From Planctomycetota bacterium (GTDB lineage: Bacteria > Planctomycetota > UBA1135 > GCA-002686595): 64,000 nucleotides of DNA. How positions within the stretch are numbered: the stretch's first letter is position 1; every line of letters begins with the position of its first letter. The stretch spans positions 19,587-83,586 of the forward strand of contig NYXZ01000015.1 of assembly GCA_002686595.1 (NCBI GenBank), read 5' to 3'. The translations under genes were made by a program, and so were the position numbers. The notes beneath the pieces were generated by a model. That model was given only the letters and a program-made list of their open reading frames with translations, was not told where the DNA came from and searched no databases. Positions 28,885 to 35,046 of the stretch are shown in pieces.

Positions 28885-30522
28885 ATGGCTGGACCGTCCA
28901 AGAAACAGGGTAAGCAGAGGGCCAGGGGCGTGGCGACTGCGGGAGCGGCCGGGGAAGGGCAGGCGGCACGGCCGCGGAATTACGGACGCTGGCGGGCCCT
29001 GAGCCTCTTGACGGTTTACCTCTTGATGGCCGCCCATGTCATCCATTGGAAGCTGGCTGGCCGCACCCTGGCGCCGCTCGAACTGCATGAGGTGATGTTC
29101 ACCCTGGAGCTCGGCATCGTCACCGCCGGTTTTCTGTTCATGGCAGCCGCCTTCCTGTCGGCTGCCATCTTCGGGCGCTTCTTCTGCTCCTGGGGCTGTC
29201 ACATCCTGGCCCTGGAGGATGCCTGCGCCTGGCTCCTGGGGCGCATGGGAATCGAACCCAAGCCCTTCCGTTCGCGCTTCCTGCGCCTGGTGCCGTCGGT
29301 GGCCCTGATCTACATGTTCGTCTGGCCCCATGTGAAACGCATCACCAGCGGCGGTTCCTTCCCGGGCTTTCGCATTCAGACCGACGCCGAGGGCTGGGCC
29401 TCCTTCGCCACCAGCGACTTCTGGCGAAACTTGCCGCCGGTTTCCGTGGCGCTTTTGACCTTTGCCGTGTGCGGATTCGCCGTGGTCTACTTCCTCGGCA
29501 GCCGCGGCTTCTGCGCCTACGGTTGTCCATACGGCGTGCTCTTCGGTTTGGCGGACCGCTTGGCACCCGGGCGCATCGTCGTGGCGGAAGGCTGCGCCGC
29601 CTGCGGCCACTGCACGGATGCCTGTCAGTCCGGCGTGCTCGTGCACGAGGAGACACAGGCCCATGGGCGCGTGGTGGACAGCGCCTGTCTCAAGGACCTG
29701 GATTGCGTGGCCGCCTGCCCCTCTGGCGTCTTGAGCTACGGCCGCGCGCGGCCGGCGGGTCTGCTCCGTTCCCTGCGCAGAGAGGCGGCGGCCGCCGCGG
29801 ATGACGGACTGCCCTCGACCTACGCCTTCAGCCCCGCCGAGGATCTGGCCATGGCGGCAGTCTTCGTGCCCGCCACAGGCTTTTTGGCCGGCGCCCACTT
29901 CTCGCTCTTGCCGGTGCCCCTGTGCGCAGTGCTCGGAGCCCTGTGCGCCTGGTTGACGGTCATGTGCGTCCGTCTCCTGCGCGGGCAGGATGTGGCCGTG
30001 GGCGGCGTGCTACTGAAGCGCTCGAGCGGCATGACGGGGGCCGGGGCGGCCTTGATCGTGGCCGCCTGCCTGGCGACGGCCGGCTGGGTCCATAGCGCCG
30101 CACTTTGGAGAGATGAACTGGCCGGCAGTCGGGCACTGGGGGAGGTGCAACGCACACTTGAATCAACGCCTCAAGGGACCGTGGCTGCCGCTTCCCTTGA
30201 ACGGGGAATCGCTCTAGAGATGGCTCTCAGGCGTTTAGAACGTGCCTCGCGCCTGTCGTTGTTTGCTGCCCCACAACTTCACTGGCAGTTGGCCTGTCTG
30301 CACGGCCTCTCGGGTGGCCAACTAGATGGAGCGACGGCGCGCCGCCTGTTGAACGGAGAGCGCGGGGATCAGGATCGCGTACTACTTGAAAAGCGCCTGC
30401 ATGGCGAATACGGCGGGCAGCAGGGAACCGCTCCAAGTTCCGAGGGGGATGCCCAGCGGGCAATTCATGCGCGGGCGGGTCTGGCTCACCTGCGTCAGAT
30501 AACGCGGCCTTCCAGGTCCTGA
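28885..30522 (+). CDS. Membrane 4Fe-4S ferredoxin-type protein (NapH/CcoG-like)
   Basis: FGRFFCSWGCHILALEDACAW, FCAYGCPYG, CAACGHCTDACQSG, CLKDLDCVAACPSG; multiple TM segments. Confidence 0.82.
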   Translation: MAGPSKKQGKQRARGVATAGAAGEGQAARPRNYGRWRALSLLTVYLLMAAHVIHWKLAGRTLAPLELHEVMFTLELGIVTAGFLFMAAAFLSAAIFGRFFCSWGCHILALEDACAWLLGRMGIEPKPFRSRFLRLVPSVALIYMFVWPHVKRITSGGSFPGFRIQTDAEGWASFATSDFWRNLPPVSVALLTFAVCGFAVVYFLGSRGFCAYGCPYGVLFGLADRLAPGRIVVAEGCAACGHCTDACQSGVLVHEETQAHGRVVDSACLKDLDCVAACPSGVLSYGRARPAGLLRSLRREAAAAADDGLPSTYAFSPAEDLAMAAVFVPATGFLAGAHFSLLPVPLCAVLGALCAWLTVMCVRLLRGQDVAVGGVLLKRSSGMTGAGAALIVAACLATAGWVHSAALWRDELAGSRALGEVQRTLESTPQGTVAAASLERGIALEMALRRLERASRLSLFAAPQLHWQLACLHGLSGGQLDGATARRLLNGERGDQDRVLLEKRLHGEYGGQQGTAPSSEGDAQRAIHARAGLAHLRQITRPSRS

Positions 30523-31226
30523 CGCTGGCGCTCGACTACAAAGTCCATCACCGTTTCCTGACGCGCCAGGAAGTCAGGCGTCTCGTCCTTAAGGAAGTAC
30601 ATGCCGAGATGGATGCCGCGCGGGGCTAGGTGGCGCTCGCAAATCGAGGCGGCGAACTCCAACCGTTGACCGTCCAAGGTGAAGGCCACGGTGACGCGCG
30701 TGAAGGCCGCCAGTTTCACTTCGACCTCCGAGCCGACGCGCAGGGAGAGTCCGTCGGCGGAGATGTCGTTGAGGACCAACGCCTTGAAGGCGGCGCCCGT
30801 GGGCGTGGACAGGTGAACTGCGATCGGCTCCGTGGCCAGGGGGCGCACGCGGTAGGCGGCGCGTTGGCTGAAGAGCACTTGCAGAGCCGGAGCCAAATCC
30901 GACTCAACCTCCTCCGGACGGGTGAAGGCCAGGATGTAACGCCGGCTATTGCCGCGGTCCCGGCGGCGCTCGATGCGCGCTTCCACCTCGATGCCCACCT
31001 TCCAGGATGGCGAGCGCACCTCAAGGGTCACTAGCAAGCCCAGGGGAAAGGCGGGCAGGCCAGTTTCACCTTCCCGATAGTTGAGGATCATCTCCCGGGA
31101 TGTGATCGATTGCACCTGGCCCTCCATGGCCGCCAGGCCACAGGCTCCATCGGGTACGATGCGCGCGAGCAGCAGCGTGCGCGCCCGCCGGGTGGGCTGA
31201 AAGAGGGTTTTGGGGTCCGTCGACAT
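30495..31226 (-). CDS. PilZ-domain (c-di-GMP binding) protein with YcgR-like N-terminus
   Basis: RAAYRVRP (RxxxR) and NDISADGLSLRVG (D/NxSxxG) motifs. Confidence 0.85.
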   Translation of the reverse strand: MSTDPKTLFQPTRRARTLLLARIVPDGACGLAAMEGQVQSITSREMILNYREGETGLPAFPLGLLVTLEVRSPSWKVGIEVEARIERRRDRGNSRRYILAFTRPEEVESDLAPALQVLFSQRAAYRVRPLATEPIAVHLSTPTGAAFKALVLNDISADGLSLRVGSEVEVKLAAFTRVTVAFTLDGQRLEFAASICERHLAPRGIHLGMYFLKDETPDFLARQETVMDFVVERQRQDLEGRVI

Positions 31227-31303
31227 GGGGGGGGTATCTGACCTAGTTGTCGACCGCTGGGCCGCCTACCTTTAATGGACTAGGCCCCAGGTTGGCATGG
31301 GGG

Positions 31304-31393
31304 CTGGGAGCCCGTTGATAAACTCCCTACTACGGCTTCGCCATCGCCGCGAGGGCTGCGCCTCGCGACGGGGCTATTTCAACGGACTCCTAG
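31304..31393. repeat. CTAG-bounded palindromic MITE-like element, short copy B
   Basis: GGAGCCCGTTGATAAACTCCCTACTACGGCTTCGCCATC...CGACGGGGCTATTTCAACGGACTCCTAG. Confidence 0.8.
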
Positions 31394-31430
31394 GACGGGC
31401 GCAGTCCTGCGCGGGCGGAAGCCGTGTTCC

Positions 31431-31976
31431 TCAGCCGTCCAGCCAGGTCAGGGCTCGGTCCACCGGGATGGAGTCGGTGAAGTCCGCGCCGTAGTGAACC
31501 TGTTCCAGGTGCCCGGTGGGATTGATCAAGAAATCCGCCGGGCGGATGCCGATGCCGTCTCGCAGGGCATCGCGCCAGCGTGGCCGGTGCCCGGCCTGGG
31601 CCGCGGCCCGGGCGCGGCGCCAGGCCCCCGGATGCAAGAGGGCCGTCAAGCCGCCGCCCACGCCCCAGGCCGAGTAGGCCATACGCTGGGGGTCAGCCAA
31701 GAGGGGAAAGGGGAGGGCCTGGGGACCGCTGACGAAATCAGTCAGGGCCGTCACTGGGGAATGGAAAACGCGTATCAGCTCCACGCCCCGAGCTTGAAAC
31801 TCTTCGTAGCGGGCGGCGAACTGCCGCACCGTGAGGACGCAGGTGGGTCACGTGGCGTAGCGCTGGAAGGACAGCAGGTAGCGCCGGCCCGCCAGGTCAC
31901 GGTTGTCGAAGTTACCACCGTCGGCGGTGGCCGATGTGAGGACGGGTGCGGAGTGGCCTACTCTCAGCTGACTCAT
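31431..31976 (-). CDS. Selenocysteine-containing peroxiredoxin-like (AhpC/TSA-type) protein; TGA (31848-31850) at codon 43 = Sec, motif UPTC
   Basis: Frame reads MSQLRVGHSAPVLTSATADGGNFDNRDLAGRRYLLSFQRYAT-U-PTCVLTVRQFAARYEEFQARGVELIRVFHSP...; TGA sits at the first Cys of the family CPxC motif; ATG overlaps the murQ stop; SECIS-like hairpin immediately downstream. Confidence 0.85.
31810..31831 (-). promoter_or_regulatory. Bacterial-type SECIS element of the peroxiredoxin-like selenoprotein
   Basis: CGG(U)GCGGC-AGUUC-GCCGCCCG: 8 bp with a single bulged U on the 5' side, 5-nt loop with G at position 2, loop 26-30 nt after UGA. Confidence 0.75.
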
Positions 31977-32923
31977 GCTGGTTGTTGGTCTTCTGCGGTC
32001 GCCAGGGCGCTGCCCAAGAAGCCGTCGGCGGCCGCCAGGCGTTCTTCCGCGGCGGCTCGCTCAAGTCCACAGCGGCCCATGACCACCGCGGTCTTCACAC
32101 GGCCCCCGGCGGCGTCCAGGAGTTGGCCGGCCCGGCTCCGATCAACATCGGCCAACTCGCAAACCAGGCGCAGGCCGCGGTCCCGCAGCTTGGCATTGGC
32201 ACCGGTCTTCACATCGACCATGCGATTGCCGTGAATCTTGCCCAGGCGCGCCATGGTCAAAGTGGAGATTGTGTTCAGCACCATTTTGGTGGCAGTCCCC
32301 GCCTTGAGGCGTGTGGAGCCCGTCAGGATCTCCGGGCCCGTTTCCAGGCGCAAGCTGAGATCTGCCCGGTCCGGGGCGGCTTCGAAGGGCACGCAGGCCA
32401 AGAAGACGGATGCCGCGCCGGCGGCGCGGGCGGCGGCCAGGGCTCCGTGGGCATAGGGAGTTGTGCCTCCAGCGGAAATGGCGATGACCACATCCGCCGG
32501 GCCCAGGCCGCGGGCCGTCAGTTCGCGACCGGCGGCCTGTTCGTCATCCTCGGCCCCTTCCACGGCCCGCGTCAAAGCCCCATCGCCCCCGGCGATGAGG
32601 GCCTGGACCTGCTCGGGGGAACTGTGAAAGGTGGGGGGACATTCCGCCGCGTCAAGTACTCCCAAGCGCCCGCTGGTGCCGGCGCCCACGTAGAACAGGC
32701 GCCCGCCCTCGGCCAAGCGCGTCGCCACCAGGTCCACTACGCTTGCGATTTCATCGGCCGCTCGCTGCACGGCACTGGCCGCCGCGGCATCAGCTCGGGC
32801 ACAGAGGGCGAGGGCCTTTTTGGTGTCCAGTTCGGAGAGGCTCTCGCTTTCAGCCAGGGGGCATTCCGTGGGGAGCTGGGCGCGGTCGAGGGCTGGTTTG
32901 TGAGGCTGCGCGGACATGGCCAC
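31973..32923 (-). CDS. murQ: N-acetylmuramic acid 6-phosphate etherase
   Basis: GRLFYVGAGTSGRLGVLDAAECPPTF, IAISAGGTTPY, GSTRLKAGTATKMVLNTISTLTMARLGKIHGNRMVDVK. Confidence 0.95.
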   Translation of the reverse strand: MAMSAQPHKPALDRAQLPTECPLAESESLSELDTKKALALCARADAAAASAVQRAADEIASVVDLVATRLAEGGRLFYVGAGTSGRLGVLDAAECPPTFHSSPEQVQALIAGGDGALTRAVEGAEDDEQAAGRELTARGLGPADVVIAISAGGTTPYAHGALAAARAAGAASVFLACVPFEAAPDRADLSLRLETGPEILTGSTRLKAGTATKMVLNTISTLTMARLGKIHGNRMVDVKTGANAKLRDRGLRLVCELADVDRSRAGQLLDAAGGRVKTAVVMGRCGLERAAAEERLAAADGFLGSALATAEDQQPA

Positions 32924-32979
32924 ATCAGGTTGGCATAGGCCGGGGGCCGGAGGAAGACCCTCCCACTGACAGAGGCCAG

Positions 32980-33558
32980 CTAGGCGTCGTGGCCCAGGTC
33001 GATCTTGACCGAGGCCGGTAGGCCGAGGCTCGGCAGTTCCCGGCGCAGGTCCCGTTCCAAGCGCCGCATATCAGCATCGGGCACCTGCAGGTAGAAATCC
33101 AAGCGCGTGCGGCGACCGCCTCCGGGGGTTCTGATCTTCGAGGATTCAAACAGCACTTCCCCGTCGGTCTCCTGCTCAAGCCACTCCCGCAGGCCTTCGA
33201 TTTCGACCTGGCCGCGAAGTTCCAGGCGCAGATGAACGGGGTGCAGCTGGCGCTCAGCGGGCGTGCCCTGGTCGATGGCCACGGGGGTGCCGCGCTCGAG
33301 TTGGATGCTGCTCACCGGGCCGTGGCGGACGATGGCAGAACCCGTCAGCACCACCAGGGACAGCGTCAGGGCCAGCAATCCAAGAAAGCCCAGGCAACCC
33401 AAGAGGCAGCCTCCACCACATCCCAGACAGAGCTTGCCCGGCACCGAACCGTCGGGCTTGGTGCGGCCCAGGAGCACCGTGATGACCAGCACCAGGGCTC
33501 CCAGGAAACCGAGGAAGAGCAGGAAGAGGAAGGCCGGGGGCAGGGCGGTGTGGATCAT
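32980..33558 (-). CDS. Hypothetical membrane protein (two N-terminal TM segments)
   Basis: MIHTALPPAFLFLLFLGFLGALVLVITVLLG...LLGCLGFLGLLALTLSLVVLTGSAI. Confidence 0.6.
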   Translation of the reverse strand: MIHTALPPAFLFLLFLGFLGALVLVITVLLGRTKPDGSVPGKLCLGCGGGCLLGCLGFLGLLALTLSLVVLTGSAIVRHGPVSSIQLERGTPVAIDQGTPAERQLHPVHLRLELRGQVEIEGLREWLEQETDGEVLFESSKIRTPGGGRRTRLDFYLQVPDADMRRLERDLRRELPSLGLPASVKIDLGHDA

Positions 33559-33788
33559 GTCGCTGGAGGCTGGAGTGGGCAGAGGGGTTTGGTCTACGCA
33601 CAGCCTCCAACGGCATTTTACCACGACCGGCAACGAACGCCAGGGCTGCTCGTCATGGGGCAGAGGGGGTCTTTGCCCCCGTTCGTTCTAGCCCCTGGTC
33701 GACGCTAGTATGCTTGGAAGATGAGAGCGAAAAGGGGAGCTGAGGAGTTTGTGAGCTGGTGAGAGGAGGGGAGTGGGAGACGAGAAAA

Positions 33789-33818
33789 GGGGGCGCCCAC
33801 CGCACGGTGGGCGCCCCC
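33789..33818 (-). terminator. Strong intrinsic terminator downstream of the exported selenoprotein gene
   Basis: Perfect 14-bp stem GGGGGCGCCCACCG-(CA)-CGGTGGGCGCCCCC, followed on the minus strand by TTTT. Confidence 0.85.
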
Positions 33819-33843
33819 TTGTTTTGTTGAGTTCGATCCGGCT

Positions 33844-35046
33844 CTAGCGGCCCGGCGTCACGGGCCCGTCATTGCGGGCCTTGCCGGTGATGGGACCGAA
33901 GATGGTCCGCGCGTGCTCGATGTCGACTTTGATGTCCTTGTCCTTTGGTACTCGCCCGGAGTACTTGCTGAAGCCGCCGCCTCAGCAGCCTCCAAAACGA
34001 CCGGAGATGACCTCCTTACCAGTGCGCTTGTCGCGGATGATGATCTTGGGCGACTTGGCGTTGGGCGTGAAGGTGTGGTACTCCTCGTTGGCGGCGCCGT
34101 AGAAGACGACATCGGGCTGGACGGTGACGTATTCGCCATCCTTCTCATAGTCGAACTCGATGCGTACCGGAGAACCCCAACCGACGCTCTTTTCGGCGCC
34201 GGCCTTGACCTCAATGGGCCCCATCTTGCCGTTGCGGATGCGCACGGTCTCGGTCTTGCCGCGGGTGGCATAGCCGCTTTCGAGACTATAGGTGGCGGCG
34301 GGCACCGCCAGTCCCTCGCGGTAGTCGGCCACATTGAACGAGTAGTCGCCGGAGCGCACCACAGCCGCCACCAAGTTGCCGTTGACCGTGTATTCCTCGG
34401 TCATGTTCAGCATGCCGGTTTCGCCCTCATAGGGCGTGGCCGTCACCTGGGTACCGTTGGGGCTGATCTCGAAATCGTAGAGTTCGCCCTTCAGATTGAT
34501 GACGCGGCTCAGGAAGCTGGCCGCCTCCCCCTTGCCGACGATCATGGCATCCTGGCCGTAGTCGTTGTAGAGGCCGTTGTTGTTCTGATCGATGATCAAA
34601 ATCGTGTGTCCGCCGAGCTTGCCGCGCATGGCACCGCCGGCTGACCAACGCCAGGCTGAGCTGGAACTCTTGAAGCGCACGGCGTACTGGAAGGACTCGC
34701 CTTCTTCGTCGCGGCCGCGCAGGGTGAGTGATCCGCCCATGCCCTTGACCTTCGAGTCGAAGCGCCCGTTGCCGGTGCTGTCCACTTCGATTTTCAAGGG
34801 GCCGCGCTTGGCCACTTGATAGGCGGAGGAGTCACTGCCCGGGAGCGGGATGCGGTCGCTGACCGTCGTCCAGGTTTCCTTGGGCAGCACAAAGTCCCAC
34901 TTGGGATAGGACTTGTGGCGCAGCTCCGCCGTCAAGATGTCCTTGTCGGAGGCGCCGGGCGCGGTTGTGGTTGGCGCCGCGGCCAAGGCCGGCGGCAACA
35001 ACAGAACCCCGCCCAAGAGGGCGAGGAGTGAGTGATTCTTTTTCAT
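33844..35046 (-). CDS. Exported protein of unknown family with vicinal Cys-Sec motif (GGCUGGG); TGA (33982-33984) at codon 355 = Sec
   Basis: Signal peptide MKKNHSLLALLGGVLLLPPALAAA; after TGA the frame stays open for GGGFSKYSGRVPKDKDIKVDIEHARTIFGPITGKARNDGPVTPGR then TAG just before a strong terminator; perfect SECIS-like hairpin after the TGA. Confidence 0.8.
33948..33964 (-). promoter_or_regulatory. SECIS-like element of the exported selenoprotein
   Basis: GUACUC-CGGGC-GAGUAC: 6 perfect bp, 5-nt loop with G at position 2, loop 24-28 nt after UGA. Confidence 0.75.

Follow-up and report, generated by a model that had tools for sequence, protein, structure and literature searches.

Does the TGA at which standard annotation cuts this Planctomycetota gene short really end it, or does it encode selenocysteine (Sec, U), and if it does, what might such a protein be doing? 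The gene lies in a 64,000-nucleotide stretch of DNA (hereafter the window) on contig C20 of a 3.38-Mb MAG that is 86% complete. A first-pass annotation, made from the letters of the window alone, had proposed that the frame continues through the TGA to a TAG (33844-33846), that the cysteine preceding the TGA is the only one in the protein, and that the product is an exported selenoprotein of unknown family. Translation of the entire minus-strand frame with TGA read as U bears out the first two points, yielding a 400-residue product that carries U at residue 355 and Cys354 as its sole cysteine, with the frame closing at the predicted TAG (Table 1). The terminator expected beyond this TAG is present as well, but its stem comes to 15 bp when flanking A-T pairs are counted and it begins 23 nt downstream, where 14 bp and ~25 nt had been given earlier.

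Table 1. Positions in the window of the selenoprotein gene and its parts.
Feature	Position	Strand	Details	Basis
Selenoprotein gene	33844..35046	(-)	400 codons, ATG to TAG, Sec at codon 355	Sequence and homologues
Putative signal peptide MKKNHSLLALLGGVLLLPPALAAA	34975..35046	(-)	SPase I-like AxA cleavage site, without lipobox	Read from sequence
Calcium-loop-like DxNxNGxYxD segment DQNNNGLYNDYGQD	34549..34590	(-)	Residues 153-166	Conserved in alignment
In-frame TGA, read as selenocysteine 355	33982..33984	(-)	Directly after Cys354 (GGCUGGG)	Translation and alignment
SECIS-type hairpin GUACUC-CGGGC-GAGUAC	33948..33964	(-)	17 nt after TGA	
Post-Sec codons (45)	33847..33981	(-)	Last Ig-like-domain strands and short tail	Conserved in homologues
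Intrinsic terminator	33787..33820	(-)	15-bp stem, GTGC loop, T run	Read from sequence

Read-through is supported above all by comparison with homologues. Substitutions among 15 pairs of near relatives, counted over the 30 codons that follow the TGA, fall on codon positions 1, 2, and 3 in the numbers 94, 66, and 151, and the tail residues F383 and G384 are nearly invariant across an alignment of 26 members; judged by these patterns, the tail is conserved and is evolving as coding sequence. The Sec site is itself invariant as U or C in that alignment, and neither TAA nor TAG occurs at the aligned position in any homologue we examined, including four members first scored as gapped there and then read by hand, one of which (L158) is probably another GU form. 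Setting a profile score of 240 as the minimum gives 78 distinct members, of which 70 have Sec in the site column (53 CU, 7 CxxU, 6 UU, and 4 other xU), five have Cys (CC in L048, L050, and L052, SC in L035 and L111), one has UC, and two distant ones have neither residue. Homologues with CC, SC, or UC at this position had been named beforehand as the ones to look for, and all three exist. Four of the five Cys forms make up a single clade, starred in our tree.

The hairpin downstream of the TGA had been put forward as a bacterial SECIS element with a G in its loop. It is a perfect 6-bp stem that is present in the minimum free energy (MFE) structure, but taken by itself it is weak evidence, with a z of only −1.6 against shuffles and a comparable perfect 6-bp stem at the same distance after ~1.3% of the TGAs across the window. 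It is the comparative evidence that lifts the observation far above chance. When 35 sequences are aligned with the TGA as the starting point, covariation in the unbulged stem scores 0.414; shuffled versions average 0.096 (none of 500 shuffles scored as high), slid controls reach no more than 0.182, and 5 of the 6 stem pairs have changed on both sides. Judged from this covariation, the hairpin is under selection and maintained by compensatory changes. A second subfamily keeps a version with a bulged U and seven pairs, and more distant Sec members have stems of their own, in most cases 14-22 nt downstream, their loops being CGUGA, CGGGA, or CGGUG-like. The stem is gone in all four members of the four-member Cys clade. 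In the Cys form L111 (G234; SC, GGSCGEGF), the paired letters of the bulged stem can still be read by eye, which suggests a recent Sec-to-Cys change.

The machinery for Sec insertion is present in the source MAG, where selA, selB, selC, and selD had been left to be confirmed and all four are found: SelB scores 346 bits, above the curated cut-off, with its gene on contig C52, the tRNA-Sec has the anticodon UCA, and selD carries an in-frame TGA of its own alongside selA in the genome. The tRNA-Sec, selD, and selA genes are clustered within 5 kb (contig C14, ~29274-34065; L011, L161, L162; G000). SelB exceeds the cut-off in 58 of 61 relatives and in 31 of the 34 tested genomes with Sec members, the exceptions being the MAGs G244, G203, and G360, which are 88, 85, and 56% complete. 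Two genomes without SelB over the cut-off, G262 and G158, have only distant members without Sec. Sec use in the family tracks the Sec machinery.

The first-pass proposal would have failed had the genome lacked selB or selC, had the codons beyond the TGA been unconserved, or had homologues carried TAA or TAG at the site, and it has met none of these fates. The indecisive hairpin is all that speaks for an ordinary stop codon followed by similarity due to chance or to a recent extension, and against the conserved coding tail, the TGA in the same column of most members, the Cys in others, and the covariation, we give that explanation a negligible chance and consider it refuted for practical purposes. 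A changed genetic code with TGA as Trp was also rejected, since homologues carry Cys there instead of Trp, TGA serves as the terminal stop codon of many family genes, and the Sec machinery is present. Assembly error was rejected because the same TGA recurs in many independent genomes and stands at the site in both family genes of a complete genome, that of strain Pla163 (CP036290.1). We regard it as virtually certain that the family is a true selenoprotein family, even though Sec incorporation, like export and function, is inferred without protein-level proof.

How widespread is the family, and has it been described? The 61 relatives contain 28 full-length homologues, most with an in-frame TGA, and profile matches extend to 96 of 395 Planctomycetota genomes when more distant proteins of ~700 aa are included. 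A single protein used as the query in a scan of genome contigs found no match; sequence patterns were taken from a 7-row subset, the 26-row alignment being too diverse. All named loci come from Planctomycetota records, among them one labelled only "uncultured bacterium" and one Candidatus Kuenenia. The window protein matches nothing in Pfam or NCBIfam, and the 26 aligned members yield only one chance-level match there (E = 0.0095). The 119 prokaryotic selenoprotein families inventoried in 2026 (PMC13188914) include none with such an architecture, nor is an adjacent UU motif among the motifs given, so the earlier statement that the family is unknown holds. Selenoproteins have been listed for two Planctomycetes (PMC4807772), and as far as the accessible parts of that paper go, the family is apparently undescribed, an earlier mention in its supplementary table not being excluded. 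It would have been missed because gene calling cuts these genes at the TGA. The selenoproteins of this phylum are little studied.

The first-pass annotation had centred on a Cys-Sec pair, which is what the window gene has, but this is only one of several pairings in the family. The partner of Sec can be Cys at −1 (the commonest), Sec at −1, Cys at −3, Cys at +2 (L032), or Cys at +5 (L149-L151). Our tree requires ~4 changes for UU, ~3 for CxxU, and ~2 between Cys and Sec at the site, although these counts are approximate, coming from a quick tree with open forks. The recurrence of a second chalcogen near Sec in different branches is as expected for a resolving residue, and the variation may reflect a nucleophile with a replaceable resolving partner, which is an inference and not a proof. 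Members with no obvious nearby Cys (GU in L037, SU in L049 and L133) imply that Sec can in some cases do without a resolving partner, or that the partner is located elsewhere. With CU, UU, CxxU, UC, UxC, CC, and SC in one family, nature has provided a test of the role of the partner residue.

The UU members (L028 in G021, L036/L067 and L054/L069 in Pla163, L059, L062, and L134 in G370) have two consecutive TGA codons followed by one downstream hairpin and are predicted to contain bacterial Sec-Sec pairs. The sister of L028 is the UC member L128 (G395), which has Sec one codon earlier and Cys at the site; its hairpin still lies 16 nt from the remaining TGA, with one codon fewer between them than in L028. 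Consecutive Sec residues were first reported in the algal PDI_e (GUGUU; PMC7539508). They are common to both, but PDI_e is eukaryotic and thioredoxin-like, whereas the pairs predicted here are bacterial and served by just one hairpin, which lies within the coding sequence. If both UGAs are decoded, then how SelB can act twice in succession with one hairpin becomes a question in its own right, and the Pla163 genome offers two such genes.

An AlphaFold2 model built from 14 sequences is all-beta (pLDDT 85.9, pTM 0.81) and puts the Cys-Sec pair on the loop that joins strands 345-350 and 362-365, where local pLDDT is ~68; a separate model of the C-terminal domain reached a pLDDT of 75.8. On these models the C-terminal domain is Ig-like and one of its loops is predicted to carry Sec, within an all-beta fold and not a thioredoxin fold. 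Foldseek against the PDB returned nothing at E ≤ 0.001, its weak matches being Ig/Fn3-like sandwiches, and a PDB sequence search gave weak matches only, the best of them an antibody light-chain V domain (E = 0.003) that is consistent with an Ig-like domain but is not evidence of homology. Membership in the thioredoxin fold finds no support from family matches, from the model, or from the fold matches, which are beta-sandwiches only. D153, G158, and D166 of the calcium-loop-like segment are invariant across the 26 aligned sequences, and calcium binding may be inferred from this motif. Export is likewise inferred, from an N-terminus read by eye; homologues also start with hydrophobic leader segments.

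Resemblances to known systems are local. The GCUG centre of mammalian thioredoxin reductase had been cited as a likeness, and the local motif is indeed common to both, with vicinal selenenylsulfide chemistry suggested by analogy. The likeness goes no further, since the reductase has FAD/NAD(P)H domains and a flexible C-terminal tail, neither of which is found here, whereas the pair in our protein, inferred to be exported, occupies an internal loop of another, all-beta fold with 45 residues after Sec. A SoxY reading, which would call for GGCGG at the extreme C-terminus, has no Pfam match and only weak fold matches to SoxYZ complexes (TMq ~0.14), a superoxide-reductase reading has merely a loop or fold-class likeness, and PF07610, the family of the DUF1573 selenoproteins (UGC), is not matched. 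The SoxY, thioredoxin-reductase, and superoxide-reductase readings were rejected, the likeness being one of loop or fold class only. SaoL, SaoC, HgcA, the Csac_0668 family, KCU-star, and MbdU also have CU, a SECIS hairpin just downstream of the UGA, and Cys homologues; the new family differs from them in having no NCBIfam match, an all-beta product inferred to be exported, Sec ~45 residues before the C-terminus, and several pairings. The periplasmic n-DsbD domain bears a redox pair on an Ig-like fold. Its likeness to the new family is one of analogy only, without a sequence match; our Ig-like fold matches include none at E ≤ 0.001, and n-DsbD is absent among those listed.

If these predictions hold, UGA 355 would be decoded as Sec by SelB and the downstream hairpin, and the protein would pass to the periplasm or cell envelope as an all-beta fold with calcium-loop-like segments, presenting Cys354-Sec355 on a loop of its C-terminal Ig-like domain. 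The selenolate could then attack an oxidised substrate (a disulfide, a peroxide, or another electrophile), the neighbouring Cys would resolve the product to a vicinal selenenylsulfide, and an envelope thiol reductant would reduce it again. Across the family, the centre would cycle through a selenenylsulfide or a diselenide. Export, fold, redox cycle, substrate, and reductant are all inferred here, and we see no link between the window gene and any known reductant or oxidoreductase domain. We nevertheless think it probable that the pair is an envelope redox centre, its substrate and reductant unknown. Sec redox chemistry would then take place on an Ig-like scaffold that is exported, rather than on a thioredoxin fold, which would be a new place for extracytoplasmic selenium chemistry.

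Genomic context offers one branch of the family a different possible role. One subfamily has 10 loci with a conserved neighbourhood, in all of which the selenoprotein gene comes first on the same strand as genes for a TPR-containing protein of ~790 aa (within ~250 nt of the selenoprotein gene at all 10), a membrane protein of ~500 aa, MoxR, and DUF58, with BatA-like and VWA proteins farther downstream where more was read. These loci include L082, L080, L087, and L164-L166, and by eye the TPR protein looks retropepsin-like. In Bacteroides, operons of the Bat type are connected with aerotolerance. A gene that consistently heads such a Bat-like MoxR-DUF58-VWA operon might encode a redox sensor or switch of an envelope complex, in which the selenenylsulfide alters partner binding without substrate turnover, and the Bacteroides connection would suit this. 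The window gene, by contrast, is single, has its own terminator, and lies outside any such operon, and we consider a sensor unlikely.

It is also conceivable that the Sec/Cys pair is a site for binding or scavenging soft metals such as Hg, Cu, or Cd, and not a catalytic centre. CU pairs do occur in the metal-handling SaoL, HgcA, and MbdU (PMC13188914), and the absence of a thioredoxin-like fold is compatible with such a site. No metal-resistance genes stand beside the gene in the loci examined, however, the recurrent operon being MoxR-DUF58-VWA, and GU and SU members have just one chalcogen near the site, which makes metal binding quite improbable to our minds. Returning to the redox centre, the fullest version of that reading, a phylum-wide Ig-domain envelope redox system with an evolutionarily mobile Sec partner, true Sec-Sec pairs made by tandem UGA and one SECIS hairpin, and one branch coupled to the MoxR-DUF58-VWA operon, seems to us evenly poised between right and wrong.

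The distant members L139, L141, L145, and L152-L155 have neither Sec nor Cys at the site, which implies that the fold also has a Sec-independent role. Most relatives searched contain a ~700-aa protein (L002 in G000, L039-L047, and others) that has the family's beta domains but lacks Sec and matches nothing in Pfam. In such proteins (e.g., L002 and L042), the common domains include the LGGPF and LFGKI segments, whereas the N-terminal part is long and helical-looking and a longer insert replaces the Sec loop. The neighbours of the window gene encode a HEAT-repeat protein, a ComEC-like protein, a PilZ protein, and a 4Fe-4S protein, and do not indicate its function. The HEAT-repeat gene lies upstream of it, and a HEAT-repeat gene is also found at the CC-form loci L075 and L084.
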